From an uncultured Wenzhouxiangella sp. (GTDB lineage: Bacteria; Pseudomonadota; Gammaproteobacteria; Xanthomonadales; Wenzhouxiangellaceae): a stretch of DNA of 64,000 nucleotides. The stretch covers positions 1-64,000 of the forward strand of contig CAJXNL010000012.1 in NCBI GenBank assembly GCA_913057195.1. The letters run 5' to 3'. The position numbers were made by a program, and so were the translations under genes. Every line of letters begins with the position of its first letter. Position 1 is the first letter of the stretch. The notes under the pieces were generated by a model. It ran no database searches and was not told the origin of the DNA. It worked only from the letters and a program-made list of their open reading frames with translations. Positions 700 to 55,830 of the stretch are shown here, in pieces.

Positions 700-1965
700 T
701 TAGCTCGATTGTGCAAAGACCTTGTGATCAAGCTCGCCTTCTGAATTGGCCACAACCGTGGTGACCATGGCGTCTCCAGTGACATTGACAGCCGTTCGCG
801 TCATATCGAGCAGTCGATCCACACCCAGAATGAGCGCAATGCCCTCTGCTGGAAGGCCCACTTGCGCCAAAACGCCGGCCAGCAATACCAACCCGACACC
901 GGGCACGCCCGCAGCACCAATTGAAGCAATGATGACCATCACCACGACCATCAGGTACTGGGCGAGTGTTAAATCAACCCCGTAATATTGTGCGATAAAA
1001 CCGGCGGCAATCCCTTGCATGATCGCGGTGCCATCCATATTGATCGTGGCGCCTAGCGGGATCGTGAATGACGACACTCGGTTATTGACCCCCAACTGTT
1101 GTTGAACGGTTCTCAGCGTGACCGGAATGGTCGCAGCACTTGAGGCCGTTGAGAACGCGAACGCCATGACACCGCGCATTTTGGCAAAGAAGGTGACCGG
1201 GCTTAACCCGGTAAACAGCTTAAAGATCAGTGAATAGCTGATAAAGGCATGAACAATCAACATCACCAGCACCAAGATGACGTACTTTAAGACACCGAGG
1301 AACGTTGACCAGCCGGTGGTGGCGGCCAAGACCGTGATCAGCGCAAAAACCCCGATTGGTGCCATTAACATCACAAACCCCACCAAACGCATCACCACCG
1401 TGTTGAAATCGCTGAAAAACTGCCCGATTCGTTTGCCGGCATCGCCCGCCAGGGCCACCGAGAGGCCGACCAGCACGGCAAAAACGATGATCGGCAGCAT
1501 GTCTCCTTCAGCCATGGCCCGCACTGGGTTTTGGGGGACCATGTCCACCAAGACCTGGAAAAACGAGGGTTGAGCAGCAATGTCTCGTTCGACCAAGACA
1601 TCGGGGCTGGCACCCACACCCGGCTGAATCACGATGGCTGAGACGAGCGCCAAGGTCACGGCCACGCCCGTGGTGAACAAATAAAGGCTCAGCGCTTTGC
1701 CGCCCACCCGTCCGAGCTTTTTCGGGTCACTCAGCGCGCTGACGCCCGTAATCAATGAGACAAACACCAAAGGCACCACCAGCATGCTCAAAAAACGCAC
1801 GAAGATCTCTCCAACGGCGGTTAACAAGCCCTCAAGAACGACCGCGTTGAACCAGTCGTTGCTTGCCAACGTCATGTTTAAGCCAATGCCAACAATCAAA
1901 CCCAGCGCCATGGACGCCAGGATGCGGTTGGAGAGTTTTTGGTGATCAAAGGGCATGTCGCTCAT
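700..1965 (-). CDS. Dicarboxylate/amino acid:cation symporter (DAACS family)
   Basis: ORF; internal start MSDMPFDHQK preferred; motifs SSAATIPVTLR, GATINMDGTAI, GVPGVG, DRLLDMTRTAVNVTGDA. Confidence 0.93.
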   Translation of the reverse strand: MSDMPFDHQKLSNRILASMALGLIVGIGLNMTLASNDWFNAVVLEGLLTAVGEIFVRFLSMLVVPLVFVSLITGVSALSDPKKLGRVGGKALSLYLFTTGVAVTLALVSAIVIQPGVGASPDVLVERDIAAQPSFFQVLVDMVPQNPVRAMAEGDMLPIIVFAVLVGLSVALAGDAGKRIGQFFSDFNTVVMRLVGFVMLMAPIGVFALITVLAATTGWSTFLGVLKYVILVLVMLIVHAFISYSLIFKLFTGLSPVTFFAKMRGVMAFAFSTASSAATIPVTLRTVQQQLGVNNRVSSFTIPLGATINMDGTAIMQGIAAGFIAQYYGVDLTLAQYLMVVVMVIIASIGAAGVPGVGLVLLAGVLAQVGLPAEGIALILGVDRLLDMTRTAVNVTGDAMVTTVVANSEGELDHKVFAQSS

Positions 1966-2100
1966 GGTGTGATCTCTACCTATTTCAAAGAATGTCCGTA
2001 GTGTGCCTGGATGTCCTGACCAGCGCAAATCCATGGGATTTCAGTGGCCAGTCTCGATACAATGAGACCTTGGCAATCGTCGCTGTCCGTTGAGGCCATC

Positions 2101-3822
2101 ATGACACATTCCAACCCGACCGAGCAGGCAACACCTGAGGGCCAAGCCGCTGGCGTTCACTTTATTCACACCCGCCTCAAAAAAGAGATCGAAGCGGGCC
2201 AGGTGGACCGAGTGATCACCCGATTTCCGCCAGAGCCCAATGGATTTTTACATATCGGCCACGCCAAAGCCATTGTGTTGAACTTTTCAATGGCAGACAC
2301 CTTCGGGGGCTATACCAACCTGCGCTTTGACGACACCAACCCTGCCAAAGAAGAGCAGCGCTACATTGAGGCCATCAAAGAGGATGTTCGGTGGCTGGGC
2401 TATACCTGGCAAAACGAATGCTATGCCTCGGATTATTTTGACACGCTCTATGAATATGCCCTGCATTTGATCGATGCCGGCTTGGCTTATGTTGACGGCC
2501 AAGACGCAGAAGTCATCAAGGCCCAGCGCGGCACCCTCACCGAGCCGGGCATCCCAAGCCCTGATCGTGATCGAGCGGTCGATGAAAACCGCGCTTTGTT
2601 TGAGCGGATGCGCGCCGGAGAGTTTGAAGACGGTGCGTATGTGTTGCGGGCCAAAATCGACATGGCCGCGCCGAACATCAATTTGCGTGACCCGGTTTTG
2701 TATCGGATTCGTCGTCAGCACCATTACCGGACCGGTGACCAGTGGTGTATTTACCCCACCTATGACTTCACTCATGGGCAATCTGACGCCATCGAGCACA
2801 TCACCCACTCGCTGTGCTCTTTGGAATTTGAGGATCATCGGCCTTTGTATGATTGGTTCATCAACCATCTCCCCGTGCCTGCCCGACCACAGCAAATAGA
2901 ATTTGCACGGCTCAATATTGACTTCACCGTGCTGTCAAAACGTCGTCTGACCCGATTGGTGGATGAAGGCCATGTCGATGGCTGGGATGATCCTAGAATG
3001 CCCACCATCGCCGGGCTGCGACGGCGCGGGTTTACACCTCAATCCATCCAAAACTTCTGCCATGAGATTGGGGTGACCAAGGCTGAAAGTGTGATTCCGT
3101 TTGGCGTTTTGGAGAGAAATCTCAGAGATGACCTCAATGTGCGTGCCGAACGGCGGATGGCGGTGCTGAAGCCTTTAAAAGTGGTTCTGACCAACTTTGA
3201 TGCTGAGCAGCCCGAATACGCCACCTTGCCCAACCATCCTCAAGATCCCAGCTTGGGTGAGCGCCAAGTGCCCATCACGAAAACGCTCTACATCGAGCAA
3301 GACGATTTTATGGAGGACGCCCCGAAGAAATTTTTCCGACTCAAACCGGGGGGTGAGGTTCGGTTACGGGGCGCTTTTATTGTTCGGTGCGATGAGGTGA
3401 TCCACAACAGCGAAGGTCAAGTGGTCGAACTTCGTTGCTCGTTTGACCCAGAGTCGCGCTCCGGGCTGCCGGGGGCCGAGCGCAAAGTTAAGGGCACCAT
3501 TCACTGGGTGAGTGCTGAACACGCTGTGCCCGCAAACGTGCACTTGTACGATCGCTTATTCAATGTGCCGCACCCGGCCAAAGACAAAGCAGTGGACTTT
3601 GTGACCCACATCAATCCAGATTCTGTTGAGCATTGCGGTGGCGCCATGGTGGAGCCCAGTTTGGCTGATTGGCCGGCACAAACGCCTGTGCAATTTGAGC
3701 GTTTGGGCTATTTTATCCCTGATATCAACAGCTTACCTGGCAAGCCAGTGTTCAACCGAGCGGTGACATTGCGAGATACCTGGGCCAAGCTCGAGAAGGC
3801 GCTCAGGGCGCAGGGCACTTGA
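2101..3822 (+). CDS. glnS: Glutaminyl-tRNA synthetase
   Basis: RFPPEPNGFLHIGHAKA, VLSKRRL (KMSKS-like); start MTHSNPTEQ with GAGG upstream. Confidence 0.96.
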   Translation: MTHSNPTEQATPEGQAAGVHFIHTRLKKEIEAGQVDRVITRFPPEPNGFLHIGHAKAIVLNFSMADTFGGYTNLRFDDTNPAKEEQRYIEAIKEDVRWLGYTWQNECYASDYFDTLYEYALHLIDAGLAYVDGQDAEVIKAQRGTLTEPGIPSPDRDRAVDENRALFERMRAGEFEDGAYVLRAKIDMAAPNINLRDPVLYRIRRQHHYRTGDQWCIYPTYDFTHGQSDAIEHITHSLCSLEFEDHRPLYDWFINHLPVPARPQQIEFARLNIDFTVLSKRRLTRLVDEGHVDGWDDPRMPTIAGLRRRGFTPQSIQNFCHEIGVTKAESVIPFGVLERNLRDDLNVRAERRMAVLKPLKVVLTNFDAEQPEYATLPNHPQDPSLGERQVPITKTLYIEQDDFMEDAPKKFFRLKPGGEVRLRGAFIVRCDEVIHNSEGQVVELRCSFDPESRSGLPGAERKVKGTIHWVSAEHAVPANVHLYDRLFNVPHPAKDKAVDFVTHINPDSVEHCGGAMVEPSLADWPAQTPVQFERLGYFIPDINSLPGKPVFNRAVTLRDTWAKLEKALRAQGT

Positions 3823-51497: not shown

Positions 51498-54200
51498 ATG
51501 ACCCAACACCCCAAGCTGTGCCTCATCGATGGCTCGTCATATTTGTATCGGGCGTTCCATGCGCTGCCGAGCTTAAGCAACGCCGAAGGCCAACACACCG
51601 GCGCGATTTTTGGCGTGGCCAATATGCTCAAGCGCCTGCTGGAGCAACACCAGCCCGAGCGGGTGGCGGTGGTGTTCGATGCCCCCGGCAAAAACTTTCG
51701 TCACGAACTGTTTGCAGACTACAAGGCCAACCGTCCACCCATGCCCGATGAGCTCCGCTCGCAGATTGAGCCGCTGTATGCCTTAATCGACGCGATGGGG
51801 CTCAAGCGCGTGATCGTTGACGATGTGGAAGCCGATGATGTCATTGCGACATTGGTCACGCTTGCACGCGCAAGCGATGTCAGCGTGTTGGTCTCGTCGG
51901 GGGATAAAGACCTCGCCCAGCTGGTCGAAGATGGGGTGGTCGTCGAAGATTCGATGCAAAACAAAGCCTTCACGCCTGAGCGCGTGGAGGAGAAGTTTGG
52001 TGTCCCGCCTCACCTGGTCGGTGATCTTTTGGCGTTGACCGGCGACAGTTCAGACAACATCCCAGGCGTCGACAAAGTCGGCCCAAAGACCGCCGCCAAA
52101 TGGCTGAACCAATACGGCGGATTGTCCGAGGTCATCGCCCACGCCAACGACATTGGGGGCAAGGTGGGTGAACGGCTGCGGGACGCCTTGGACACCTTGC
52201 CACTGTCCCGGTCGCTGGTGGCTTTAAAAACCGACGTGGCCCTCCCGGTCGGCTTGGACGACCTCACACCGAAAGACCCGGATGAGGCGGACTTGGTGGC
52301 ATTGCTCAAAAAATTTGGGTTTGCGACCTGGTTAAAGCAGCATCAGTCCAGTGACTCGCCGGCCAATGACGCTGGGCCATCGCCCACCGACGCCGCTGCC
52401 GTTGAGGTCACCACCGTCACCCAAGCCAGCCAGCTCAAAGCGTTGGTCGATGCCATTGAAGCCGCAGCACTGGTGGCTTTGGATACCGAGACCACCAGCC
52501 TTGAGGCGCTGCAGGCTGATTTGGTGGGCATGTCCTTTGCCACTGAACCGGGCCGGGCGTGGTATGTGCCCATTCGGCATCAGGACCAAACCACCGAACT
52601 CAGCCCAGATGAAATCTTGGCTGCACTGCAACCGCTGCTCGAAAACCCCGACATCCGCAAAGTGGGCCAAAACCTGAAATACGATCTGAACGTGCTCCAC
52701 CGCGCGGGCATCGCGCTGGCGGGCATCGCGCACGACACCATGCTCGCCTCGTATGTCTACAACTCCACCGGCACCCGCCACGACATGGACACTTTGGCCG
52801 GACACTACTTGGGCCGATCCACCACGTCGTTCGAAGCCATCGCGGGCAAGGGCAAAAACCAGCTGACCTTTGATCAGGTCAGTGTCGACGTGGCGGCGGC
52901 GTACGCCGGCGAAGACGCCGAGGTCACGCTGGCCTTACAGGCCCACCTGTGGCCGATGCTGGAGGCCTTGCCCAAACCGGCCGAGGTGTATCAGAGCATT
53001 GAGCTTCCGCTGATTGACGTGTTGGCGCGCATGGAGCGGGTGGGGGTGGCGCTGGACTGTGACAAGCTCCGCGCACAAAGCGATGAGCTGGCCCGTGAGC
53101 TGACCGCGCTTGAGGCCCAAGCCCACGAGGTGGCCGGTCGGGCGTTTAACTTGGGCTCGCCCAAGCAGCTCCAGGCCATCTTGTTCGAAGAGCAGGGCCT
53201 GCCGGTGGTTCGAAAAACGCCCAAGGGCCAGCCGTCGACCGCTGAAGACGTGCTCCAAGAGTTGGCCGGTGAGTATGAGCTGCCGGATCTGATCTTGAAA
53301 CACCGAAGCGTGTCCAAGCTTAAAAGCACCTACACCGACCGATTGCCTGAAAAAATCAATCCCGACACCGGGCGCGTGCACACCCACTATCACCAGGCCG
53401 TCACGGCCACCGGTCGGTTGTCATCGCAAGACCCCAACCTCCAAAACATCCCCATCCGAAGCCCGGCGGGGCGACGGGTGCGGCAGGCCTTTATCGCACC
53501 CCCAGGGCGGGTGATGGTGGCGTGCGATTACTCCCAAATTGAGCTTCGCATCATGGCGCACCTGTCAGAAGACGAGCGGCTGCTGGCGGCGTTTGCGGCC
53601 GGTGAAGACGTTCACCGTGCCACCGCCGCGGAAGTGTTTGACTGTGCGCTCGATGAGGTCAGCGCCGATCAGCGCCGAGCAGCCAAGGCGATCAACTTTG
53701 GCTTGATGTATGGGATGAGCGGCTTTGGCTTGGCCAAGCAGCTGGACCTCACCCGCACGGAGGCCAGCGAGTACATCGACAAATACTTTGAGCGCTATCC
53801 CGGGGTGGCCAAGCTGATGGAGGCGGTGCGCACCCAAGCCCGCGAGCAGGGCTATGTCGAGACCTTGATGGGGCGGCGGCTGTGGACACCCGACATTAAA
53901 GCGCGCAACCCGCAGCGACGGCAAGCCGCCGAGCGCGCGGCGATCAATGCGCCGATGCAAGGCTCAGCCGCGGACATCATCAAGCGAGCAATGATTGAGG
54001 TGGATCGGTGGATCGAGCACGCTCAGGTGCCGGCGATGCTGGTGATGCAGGTCCACGATGAGCTGGTGTTGGAGGTGGAAGCCAACGCCGTCGACGAGGT
54101 GGCGGCGGGCGTGGTTGAGCGGATGGCGGGGGCCGCGGAGCTCAAAGTGCCGCTGGTGGTGGACACCGGGCAAGGCCCCGACTGGGACAGTGCCCACTGA
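51498..54200 (+). CDS. polA: DNA polymerase I
   Basis: LCLIDGSSYLYRAFHALP, 3'-5' exo LDTETTSLEA, pol motif ACDYSQIELRIMAHLSEDE, QVHDELVLEV. Confidence 0.97.
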   Translation: MTQHPKLCLIDGSSYLYRAFHALPSLSNAEGQHTGAIFGVANMLKRLLEQHQPERVAVVFDAPGKNFRHELFADYKANRPPMPDELRSQIEPLYALIDAMGLKRVIVDDVEADDVIATLVTLARASDVSVLVSSGDKDLAQLVEDGVVVEDSMQNKAFTPERVEEKFGVPPHLVGDLLALTGDSSDNIPGVDKVGPKTAAKWLNQYGGLSEVIAHANDIGGKVGERLRDALDTLPLSRSLVALKTDVALPVGLDDLTPKDPDEADLVALLKKFGFATWLKQHQSSDSPANDAGPSPTDAAAVEVTTVTQASQLKALVDAIEAAALVALDTETTSLEALQADLVGMSFATEPGRAWYVPIRHQDQTTELSPDEILAALQPLLENPDIRKVGQNLKYDLNVLHRAGIALAGIAHDTMLASYVYNSTGTRHDMDTLAGHYLGRSTTSFEAIAGKGKNQLTFDQVSVDVAAAYAGEDAEVTLALQAHLWPMLEALPKPAEVYQSIELPLIDVLARMERVGVALDCDKLRAQSDELARELTALEAQAHEVAGRAFNLGSPKQLQAILFEEQGLPVVRKTPKGQPSTAEDVLQELAGEYELPDLILKHRSVSKLKSTYTDRLPEKINPDTGRVHTHYHQAVTATGRLSSQDPNLQNIPIRSPAGRRVRQAFIAPPGRVMVACDYSQIELRIMAHLSEDERLLAAFAAGEDVHRATAAEVFDCALDEVSADQRRAAKAINFGLMYGMSGFGLAKQLDLTRTEASEYIDKYFERYPGVAKLMEAVRTQAREQGYVETLMGRRLWTPDIKARNPQRRQAAERAAINAPMQGSAADIIKRAMIEVDRWIEHAQVPAMLVMQVHDELVLEVEANAVDEVAAGVVERMAGAAELKVPLVVDTGQGPDWDSAH

Positions 54201-54299
54201 GCGTGACGCGCGGTGGTGGCCATTGACAGCCGTTAACAGCGATCATGGTCAATCGTTGTGAACTTCAAAGCCGGTCATCAGTCTTAAGTTTTACCATGT

Positions 54300-54416
54300 G
54301 CATGGCGTGATCGCATCCTCCTCCCTAGGGTGCATCACAACAGGCTTGATGTTTCGTCCCCGAACCTTAAGCCTGCCTTGAAGGCCCCAGGTCCTCCCTC
54401 ACCTGGGGCCTTTTTT
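54300..54416 (+). ncRNA. Candidate small RNA downstream of polA: three hairpins with C-rich loops, intrinsic terminator at 3' end (5' end approximate)
   Basis: Stem-loops 54307-54338 (loop CCTCCCT), 54341-54375 (loop TCCC), 54381-54412 (loop CCTCCCTC) plus T6. Confidence 0.72.
54381..54416 (+). terminator. Intrinsic terminator
   Basis: aaggccccaggt-cctccctc-acctggggcctttttt, 12-bp stem. Confidence 0.95.
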
Positions 54417-54471
54417 ATGGGCATGACCGCTATACTGTCGATCAAAGCCATCGAGACAATAGGGGCAAAAG

Positions 54472-55830
54472 ATGATGTTGCATGTCGTAGTTTTGGCCGC
54501 TGGCGAGGGCAAGCGCATGCGCTCGCGCCACCCGAAGGTCCTTCAGCCGGTGGGCGGGCAGGCCATGCTTGGGCATTTGCTCGACACCGCTCAAGCATTG
54601 GCGCCCGATCAGATCCACGTGGTCGTTGGGCAAGGCGCGGCGGCGGTTCAAGACCAGTTTCCGGCGTTTTCGGGGGTGTGGGTCCATCAACGCGAGCGCT
54701 TGGGCACCGGGCACGCCACGCTGCAGGCGCTGCCGGGGATCCCAGACGAGGCCCGCGTGCTGGTGCTGCCGGGCGATATGCCCCTGGTGCGCGCTGAGAC
54801 CTTAACCCGTTTGGTCCAATCGAGCGCGGATCTGTCGGTGCTGAGCTTTGTGGCGGATGACCCCACTGGCTATGGTCGGGTGCTGCGAGATGCCGATGAT
54901 CAGGTCAGCGCGATTGTCGAGCAGGCCGATGCCTCACCAGAGCAAGCCCAGGTGCGTGAGGTCAATGCCGGTGTGATGGTGGCCAAAGGCCAGGCGCTGA
55001 AAGACTGGTTGGCGCGGCTTGAGCCGAAAAACGCACAAGGCGAGTACTACCTGACCGACGCGGTGGCCCTGGCGGTGGGGCGGTGTCAGCGGGTGGAGGC
55101 GGTGATCGCCGCCGATGGACAAGAGTGCATGGGCGCCAATGATCGGGCGGGGTTGGCCGAGTTGGAACGCGTCTGGCAGTGGCGACAGCGCCATGCGCTG
55201 ATGGCGGCTGGGGCAATGTTGGAAGACCCCGCCACGGTGTGGGTCAAAGGCTCGGTGGAGGTGGGTCAAGATGTGCGCATTGGCCCCAACGTGACCTTCC
55301 AAGGTCAGGTGGCTTTGGGCGATGGCGTGGTGGTCGAGACCGGCTGTGTGATCGATGACTGCCGGCTGGCGGCGGACACCCATTTGGCGCCGTATTCGGT
55401 GTTGGCGGGGGTGGAAACCACCGGGGCGTGTCAGGTCGGGCCCTTTGCCCGCTTGCGGCAGGGCACGGTCTTGGCCGATCAGGTCAAAATCGGCAACTTC
55501 GTTGAGGTCAAACAGGCGAGCTTGGCCGCGGGGGCGAAAGCCAGTCACCTGAGCTACATCGGGGATGCCGCGATTGGTGAAGGCGTCAATATCGGCGCGG
55601 GCACCATCACGTGCAACTATGACGGGGTGGCCAAGCACACCACCACCATTGAGCCCGGTGCCTTTATCGGCTCCAACACCGCGCTTGTTGCCCCGGTCAC
55701 CATTGGCTCGGACGCGGTGATTGGCGCGGGGAGTGTGATCTCCAAAGACGCCCCCCGCGATCAGTTGAGCCTCACCCGCGCACCCCAGCGGTCCATCGAA
55801 GGTTGGGTGCGCCCGAAAAAAACACGGTGA
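54472..55830 (+). CDS. glmU: Bifunctional UDP-GlcNAc pyrophosphorylase/glucosamine-1-P acetyltransferase
   Basis: VVLAAGEGKRMRS; left-handed beta-helix; HLSYIGDAAIGEGVNIGAGTITCNYDG. Confidence 0.97.
   Translation: MMLHVVVLAAGEGKRMRSRHPKVLQPVGGQAMLGHLLDTAQALAPDQIHVVVGQGAAAVQDQFPAFSGVWVHQRERLGTGHATLQALPGIPDEARVLVLPGDMPLVRAETLTRLVQSSADLSVLSFVADDPTGYGRVLRDADDQVSAIVEQADASPEQAQVREVNAGVMVAKGQALKDWLARLEPKNAQGEYYLTDAVALAVGRCQRVEAVIAADGQECMGANDRAGLAELERVWQWRQRHALMAAGAMLEDPATVWVKGSVEVGQDVRIGPNVTFQGQVALGDGVVVETGCVIDDCRLAADTHLAPYSVLAGVETTGACQVGPFARLRQGTVLADQVKIGNFVEVKQASLAAGAKASHLSYIGDAAIGEGVNIGAGTITCNYDGVAKHTTTIEPGAFIGSNTALVAPVTIGSDAVIGAGSVISKDAPRDQLSLTRAPQRSIEGWVRPKKTR

Follow-up and report, generated by a model that had tools for sequence, protein, structure and literature searches.

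The closest described relative of the RNA considered here is sX13, a small RNA (sRNA) of Xanthomonadaceae. It is 115 nt long, is always encoded downstream of polA, folds into three stems with C-rich loops and has been reported from that family only (PMC3771888). sX13 is a highly expressed sRNA whose level is higher in high salt and at 37 °C, and it represses mRNAs bearing G-rich motifs near the start codon without needing Hfq (PMC3771888). Both the C-rich loops and the G-rich target motifs are needed for this regulation. Since a compensatory loop/target mutation failed to restore it, direct pairing is not fully proven even for sX13 (PMC3771888).

Other sRNAs are encoded at the same chromosomal position. 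For instance, ErsA, encoded in the gap between polA and engB, is depicted as two stem-loops plus a U-rich linker through which it pairs (PMC8575079), its expression being strictly sigma22/AlgU-dependent (PMC7565897). Spot 42 (spf), which is present in enterics and vibrios, occupies the slot between polA and yihA/engB; this sRNA is Hfq-dependent (as stated in PMC3771888). In the sX13 study it was remarked that sX13, Spot 42 and alpha-r7 share a locus, a point that its authors left open (PMC3771888).

The window, that is, the whole stretch of 64,000 nucleotides that was analysed, comes from an uncultured Wenzhouxiangella sp. As read directly from the sequence, its polA gene (stop codon ending at 54200) is separated from glmU (ATG at 54472) by a gap of 271 nt. 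A predicted sRNA begins 93 nt past the polA stop codon on the same strand; sX13, too, is found downstream of polA. The features of this locus are the following:

51498–54200, plus strand: polA, DNA polymerase I, the upstream neighbour (ORF of 900 aa whose C-terminal 200 aa match PolA loci order-wide)
54259–54265, plus strand: RpoE/AlgU-type −35 box TGAACTT (a GGAACTT/GAAACTT box at the equivalent place in 25/25 family loci)
54281–54286, plus strand: −10 box GTCTTA, 15 nt past the −35 box (a GTC-type box after 15–16 nt in 25/25 family loci)
54293–54418, plus strand: predicted sRNA of about 125 nt (the promoter sets its presumed start and the T run its presumed end)
54293–54306, plus strand: small 5′ hairpin ACCATGTGCATGGC (weak here, with stronger counterparts in relatives)
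54307–54338, plus strand: hairpin 1, loop CCTCCCT at 54320–54326 (fold; all 10 helix pairs compensatory in the family)
54341–54375, plus strand: hairpin 2, loop TCCC at 54357–54360 (fold; covariation of 4 of 8 pairs within the family and of 8 of 8 class-wide)
54381–54416, plus strand: hairpin 3 and T run, intrinsic terminator, loop CCTCCCTC at 54393–54400 (fold; CTCCCTC loop in 25/25 family loci)
54472–55830, plus strand: glmU, the downstream neighbour (ORF of 452 aa; glmU is also 3′ of the sRNA in many family loci)

A preliminary description of this DNA had proposed three back-to-back hairpins between polA and glmU, with C-rich loops and with the third hairpin as a terminator; sequence and fold place them exactly where it had put them and agree on both attributes. 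The stem of hairpin 1 consists of 12 bp with one 1-nt bulge and one G-U pair, hairpin 2 combines an outer CAGGCTT/AAGCCTG helix with an inner TTCG/CGAA helix, and hairpin 3 (54381–54412) has the stem AAGGCCCCAGGT/ACCTGGGGCCTT, followed by the T run to 54416. The loops of the predicted RNA read CCUCCCU, UCCC(C) and CCUCCCUC, a run of four C being present in loop 2 only. The minimum free energy of positions 54300–54420 is −56.8 kcal/mol versus −33.6 ± 3.3 kcal/mol in shuffled sequences (z = −6.9), and none of 200 shuffles of this segment was as low as the native value. A pattern scan for sigma-70 promoters and terminators returned nothing; RpoE promoters are outside its scope, and it missed the visible terminator with its 12-bp stem.

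Two covariance models were built: R1, trained on the window's own bacterial family only, with no sX13 sequence included, and R2, a wider derived model. The predicted sRNA is matched by R1 at 54292–54418 with 91.2 bits and by R2 with 72.7 bits. The host assembly (1.78 Mb, 99% complete) carries a single copy and no paralogue, the second-best R1 match having only 13.4 bits.

Two features go beyond the preliminary description, namely the small 5′ hairpin (54293–54306) and the RpoE-type promoter (54259–54286). The inverted repeat of the 5′ hairpin is retained with altered letters in most relatives, such as GCCCT/AGGGC in L018. The promoter, TGAACTT-N15-GTCTTA, agrees as a motif with the AlgU/RpoE type known for ErsA, and the −35 box of RpoE promoters is GGAACTT (PMC8103513). 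Among the 25 family loci this box is mostly GGAACTT, with GAAACTT in four and TGAACTT in the window. The position of the two boxes sets the transcription start near 54293 and the length of the RNA at about 125 nt. RpoE is encoded by the host genome (322 bits), and its gene is preceded by GAAACTA-N15-GTCTAG, which would fit the expected autoregulation. The conservation of the promoter motif suggests that the predicted sRNA depends on RpoE and is probably switched on by envelope stress.

Conservation within the family was examined in 25 loci aligned with plain MAFFT, an alignment not fitted to structure. At least one compensatory double change is present in 16 of the 29 stem pairs, including all ten of hairpin 1, and 95.1% of the cells are paired versus 54–59% if the 3′ partner is shifted by a single column; the observed pairing values were reached by none of 500 shuffles. 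On these variable stems the loops are near-constant, with CTCCCTC as loop 3 in 25/25 loci and UCCCCA as loop 2 in 22/25. Covariation of the stems, a check that the preliminary description had called for, is strong. Because of this conservation and covariation, the structure in the window is not due to chance. Exactly one R2 match of at least 55 bits occurs in 32 of 43 family genomes, with a clear gap down to the next match at 43 bits, and the family genomes without the sRNA are mostly incomplete assemblies. The terminator pattern matches 19 named contigs, all of them assigned to Wenzhouxiangella or Wenzhouxiangellaceae where genus or family is given. The gene that follows the sRNA is glmU in many family loci and a different one in others. 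In other genera of the family (loci L145, L160, L011 and L018) the sRNA and its promoter no longer adjoin polA, the distance by contig coordinates being about 11 kb in L145 and about 26 kb in L160.

The same description had likened the element to sX13 and placed the latter next to polA, and the published account of sX13 (115 nt, always downstream of polA, three stems, C-rich loops; PMC3771888) bears this out. Like sX13 (RF02232), the window RNA is encoded downstream of polA on the same strand, measures about 115–125 nt and has three stems with C-rich loops, the third stem being the terminator in both; the stability of the three stems is seen in fold and covariation. The loop motifs differ, since sX13 carries 4C motifs in loops 1 and 2 and 5C in loop 3, whereas the window RNA has loops of the CCUCCC type, with no 4C motif in loop 1 or 3. 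In a 351-nt segment of the window RF02232 gave no match up to E = 10 (cut-off 50 bits). R1 finds the sX13 gene in 20/20 sampled genomes of the sX13-bearing family f2, at 27–52 bits and with the same place and strand as RF02232. The idea of an sX13-like sRNA is supported, with the different loop motifs as a qualification. The Rfam sX13 model also matches polA-downstream RNAs of family f12 at 40–54 bits and, at 34–48 bits, several further polA loci of the class. That the window RNA is a relative of sX13 by homology is well supported by these comparisons, although it is not a member of RF02232 by the strict Rfam test, and the order of the host would also hold the sX13-bearing family. Many sX13 promoters are of a related type, for instance CGAACCA-N15-GTCATA and CGAACTT-N15-GTCTAC.

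At the sX13 loci L062–L081, the first position of the Rfam sX13 model falls within a hairpin, GACAGGCGCAACGCCTGTC, whose 5′ part precedes the model, and a promoter-like motif lies about 45 nt 5′ of the model start. The published 5′ end of sX13 may be a processed one.

R1 was also searched against 369 gammaproteobacterial genomes spread across the class, 80 of which had a match, and the neighbourhoods of 83 matches (the window's own excluded) were checked with PolA, GlmU and EngB. Fifty-eight of the 83 lie beside polA and/or engB, where chance would place a fraction of one match in total, as estimated from genome size; this share is a lower bound, as contig ends hide the neighbours at some loci. 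Thirty-nine matches follow polA in its own orientation, 4 are oriented opposite to polA, a further 15 have engB alone as a neighbour, and at 25 neither gene is nearby. In the rest of the class, engB in opposite orientation is often the next gene. GAACTT is found 5′ of 41 of the 58 syntenic matches and of 9 of the 25 others, the frequency in shuffles being 2.4%. In 92 class-wide members, 28 of 29 pairs covary and 93% of the cells are paired versus 54–55% after sliding by one column, in an alignment that was fitted to the model and so leans towards structure.

R2 has matches in 197 of the 369 genomes. The E-values of the models built here are rough, the shortened calibration making them too optimistic, and outside synteny only matches of at least about 50 bits were trusted. 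As R2 matches in another class of the phylum reach about 43 bits, scores close to this value or lower carry little weight without synteny. We decided against including the rest of the phylum in the family, since matches in the other class do not exceed about 43 bits and those checked lie away from polA and engB. Taxonomic statements beyond the ranks of kinship are our own deductions.

Some loci of the class show rearranged units. Tandem arrays of at least four sRNA copies are present between polA and engB in L176 (G376, 1501–2246, minus strand) and L194 (G483, 2501–3433, minus strand); in the L176 array one copy matches the ErsA model at 37 bits and another the sX13 model at 48 bits. In L102 (144–264) and L103 (60–178), both of family f8, and in L164, L165 and L172 the sRNA is convergent with polA, on the opposite strand. 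These units have been flipped or re-inserted while keeping their place.

An Rfam comparison with sX13, Spot 42 and ErsA had been recommended at the outset. In the scan of the window no family reaches its cut-off, and RF02232 itself, the model of the presumed relative, was silent. Direct assignment to ErsA, Spot 42, ar14, anti-hemB or sX13 was therefore rejected, all of them being below cut-off on the window. The polA locus had rightly been named as common to ErsA and Spot 42, as the positions of both given above indicate. ErsA (RF01719, Pseudomon-1; Pseudomonas) shares with the window RNA the polA side, an AlgU-type promoter and a C-rich terminator loop, while the far neighbour is engB for ErsA and glmU in the window. 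RF01719 scores 13.6 bits on the window (cut-off 50 bits). Across the class this model gives eleven sub-threshold matches, 10 of which are at polA and/or engB, and six of those ten score 46–74 bits with R2. Support for kinship of the window RNA with ErsA is moderate, because true ErsA scores only 30.9 bits with R2.

Anti-hemB (RF02837, Burkholderia) has C-rich loops like those of the window RNA. Its model scores 21.1 bits on the window, below the cut-off of 49.5, and matches many class-wide polA-locus RNAs at 30–56 bits. In a phylum-wide search, 5 of 6 above-cut-off anti-hemB loci are beside engB, with R2 scores of 43–51 bits. Support for kinship with the window RNA is good. The anti-hemB genes that adjoin engB are those of L283, L285, L286, L290 and L293. 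Given this position next to engB, the name may describe the local neighbourhood rather than an antisense function. The alphaproteobacterial ar14 (RF02344) also has three hairpins, with CCUCCUCCC loops, and its model reaches 46.4 bits on the window over the whole model, below the cut-off of 58.8; in the other class of that phylum, the top-scoring R2 matches are neither called ar14 nor located at polA/engB. With respect to Spot 42, RF00021 has no match on the window among E up to 10 and R2 scores 15.9 bits inside spf, so that the link is positional only, with no sequence support.

The sRNA of the window appears to be part of one old RNA family at the polA spot across much of Gammaproteobacteria. 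A broader reading, somewhat more likely than not, is that one ancient RpoE-controlled sRNA with C-rich loops fills the polA-engB slot across Gammaproteobacteria (in the GTDB sense), sX13, anti-hemB, ErsA and the window RNA being branches of it and Spot 42 maybe a strongly diverged occupant. Rfam keeps sX13, anti-hemB and ErsA as separate families with no clan shown for them, and our literature search found no paper uniting these three and Spot 42 into one family.

The same slot, hairpin order, promoter type and usually strand recur through intermediate families, of which f12, f3 and f4 are a first set. Together with the recovery of all 20 sX13 genes by R1 and the reach of the Rfam sX13 model into f12 and other polA loci of the class, this makes it unlikely that convergence accounts for the resemblance to sX13 and to further RNAs of the polA locus, with C-rich triple-hairpin sRNAs having arisen repeatedly and the window RNA being unrelated by descent. 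Such a convergence would agree with the silence of the sX13 model on the window, with the score that ar14 attains on architecture and CCUCCUCCC loops, and with the R2 noise in another class. It is very improbable that the element is a cis-acting leader or attenuator of glmU: this gene begins 54 nt past the T run, and in many family loci it likewise comes next after the sRNA, but other family loci and the rest of the class have a different next gene, often engB reversed, the terminator is without an evident antiterminator partner, and sX13 acts in trans. Least probable of all is a polA terminator region with accidental extra hairpins and no independent RNA, since, although an intrinsic terminator does end the element directly behind polA, the hairpins are separated from polA by a conserved promoter, all three hairpins covary with their loops kept, the unit persists away from polA (L011, L018, L145, L160) and is on the opposite strand in some relatives, and high expression is known for the related sRNA sX13 (PMC3771888).

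Structure, covariation, conserved loops and promoter, synteny and homology to sX13 are shown by computation. We consider it likely on this basis that 54293–54418 encodes a trans-acting sRNA of about 125 nt, homologous to sX13, which has its own RpoE-type promoter and terminator, is raised by stress and represses G-rich mRNAs through its loops. We infer the following course for its transcription, its dependence on RpoE, the repression through loop pairing and the targets. Under envelope or general stress, RpoE would raise the level of the sRNA, the transcript of which would run from a dedicated RpoE (sigma-E/AlgU)-type promoter to an intrinsic terminator of its own. The transcript would open with the small 5′ hairpin, the stem of which varies on both sides between loci, and rigid stems would hold the C-rich loops CCUCCCU, UCCCC and CCUCCCUC open. 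The predicted partners of these loops are G-rich sequences of the AGGGAGG or GGGG type, in Shine-Dalgarno or early coding regions, and this pairing would mostly repress translation. Most likely the RNA is an RpoE-induced repressor, and its loop chemistry and position follow sX13. Elsewhere, the RpoE-dependent sRNAs MicA, RybB and MicL make up that arm of the envelope stress response which acts by repression (PMC8103513).

In the host genome, AGGGAGG followed by ATG after 3–10 nt occurs at 9 sites versus 0 for the reversed control, one of the nine being the antisense of the sRNA itself. Four of these sites precede long ORFs, which by eye resemble malate synthase, GspC, a methyltransferase and the E1 beta subunit of a dehydrogenase. 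These four may serve as leads rather than as targets, because the motif contains the general Shine-Dalgarno core. Hfq is encoded in the host genome; hfq is a target of sX13, and in the host AAGGAG is its sole G-rich motif.

In its original publication sX13 was confined to Xanthomonadaceae, and the authors raised the question of sRNAs at the polA loci of other bacteria. The answer from these data is yes for a large part of Gammaproteobacteria. The common promoter type points to a shared role in envelope stress, and several species-specific sRNAs become one comparable family. Both the control of sX13-type RNAs by RpoE outside Pseudomonas and pairing with G-rich ribosome-binding sites as the ancestral function can now be tested.
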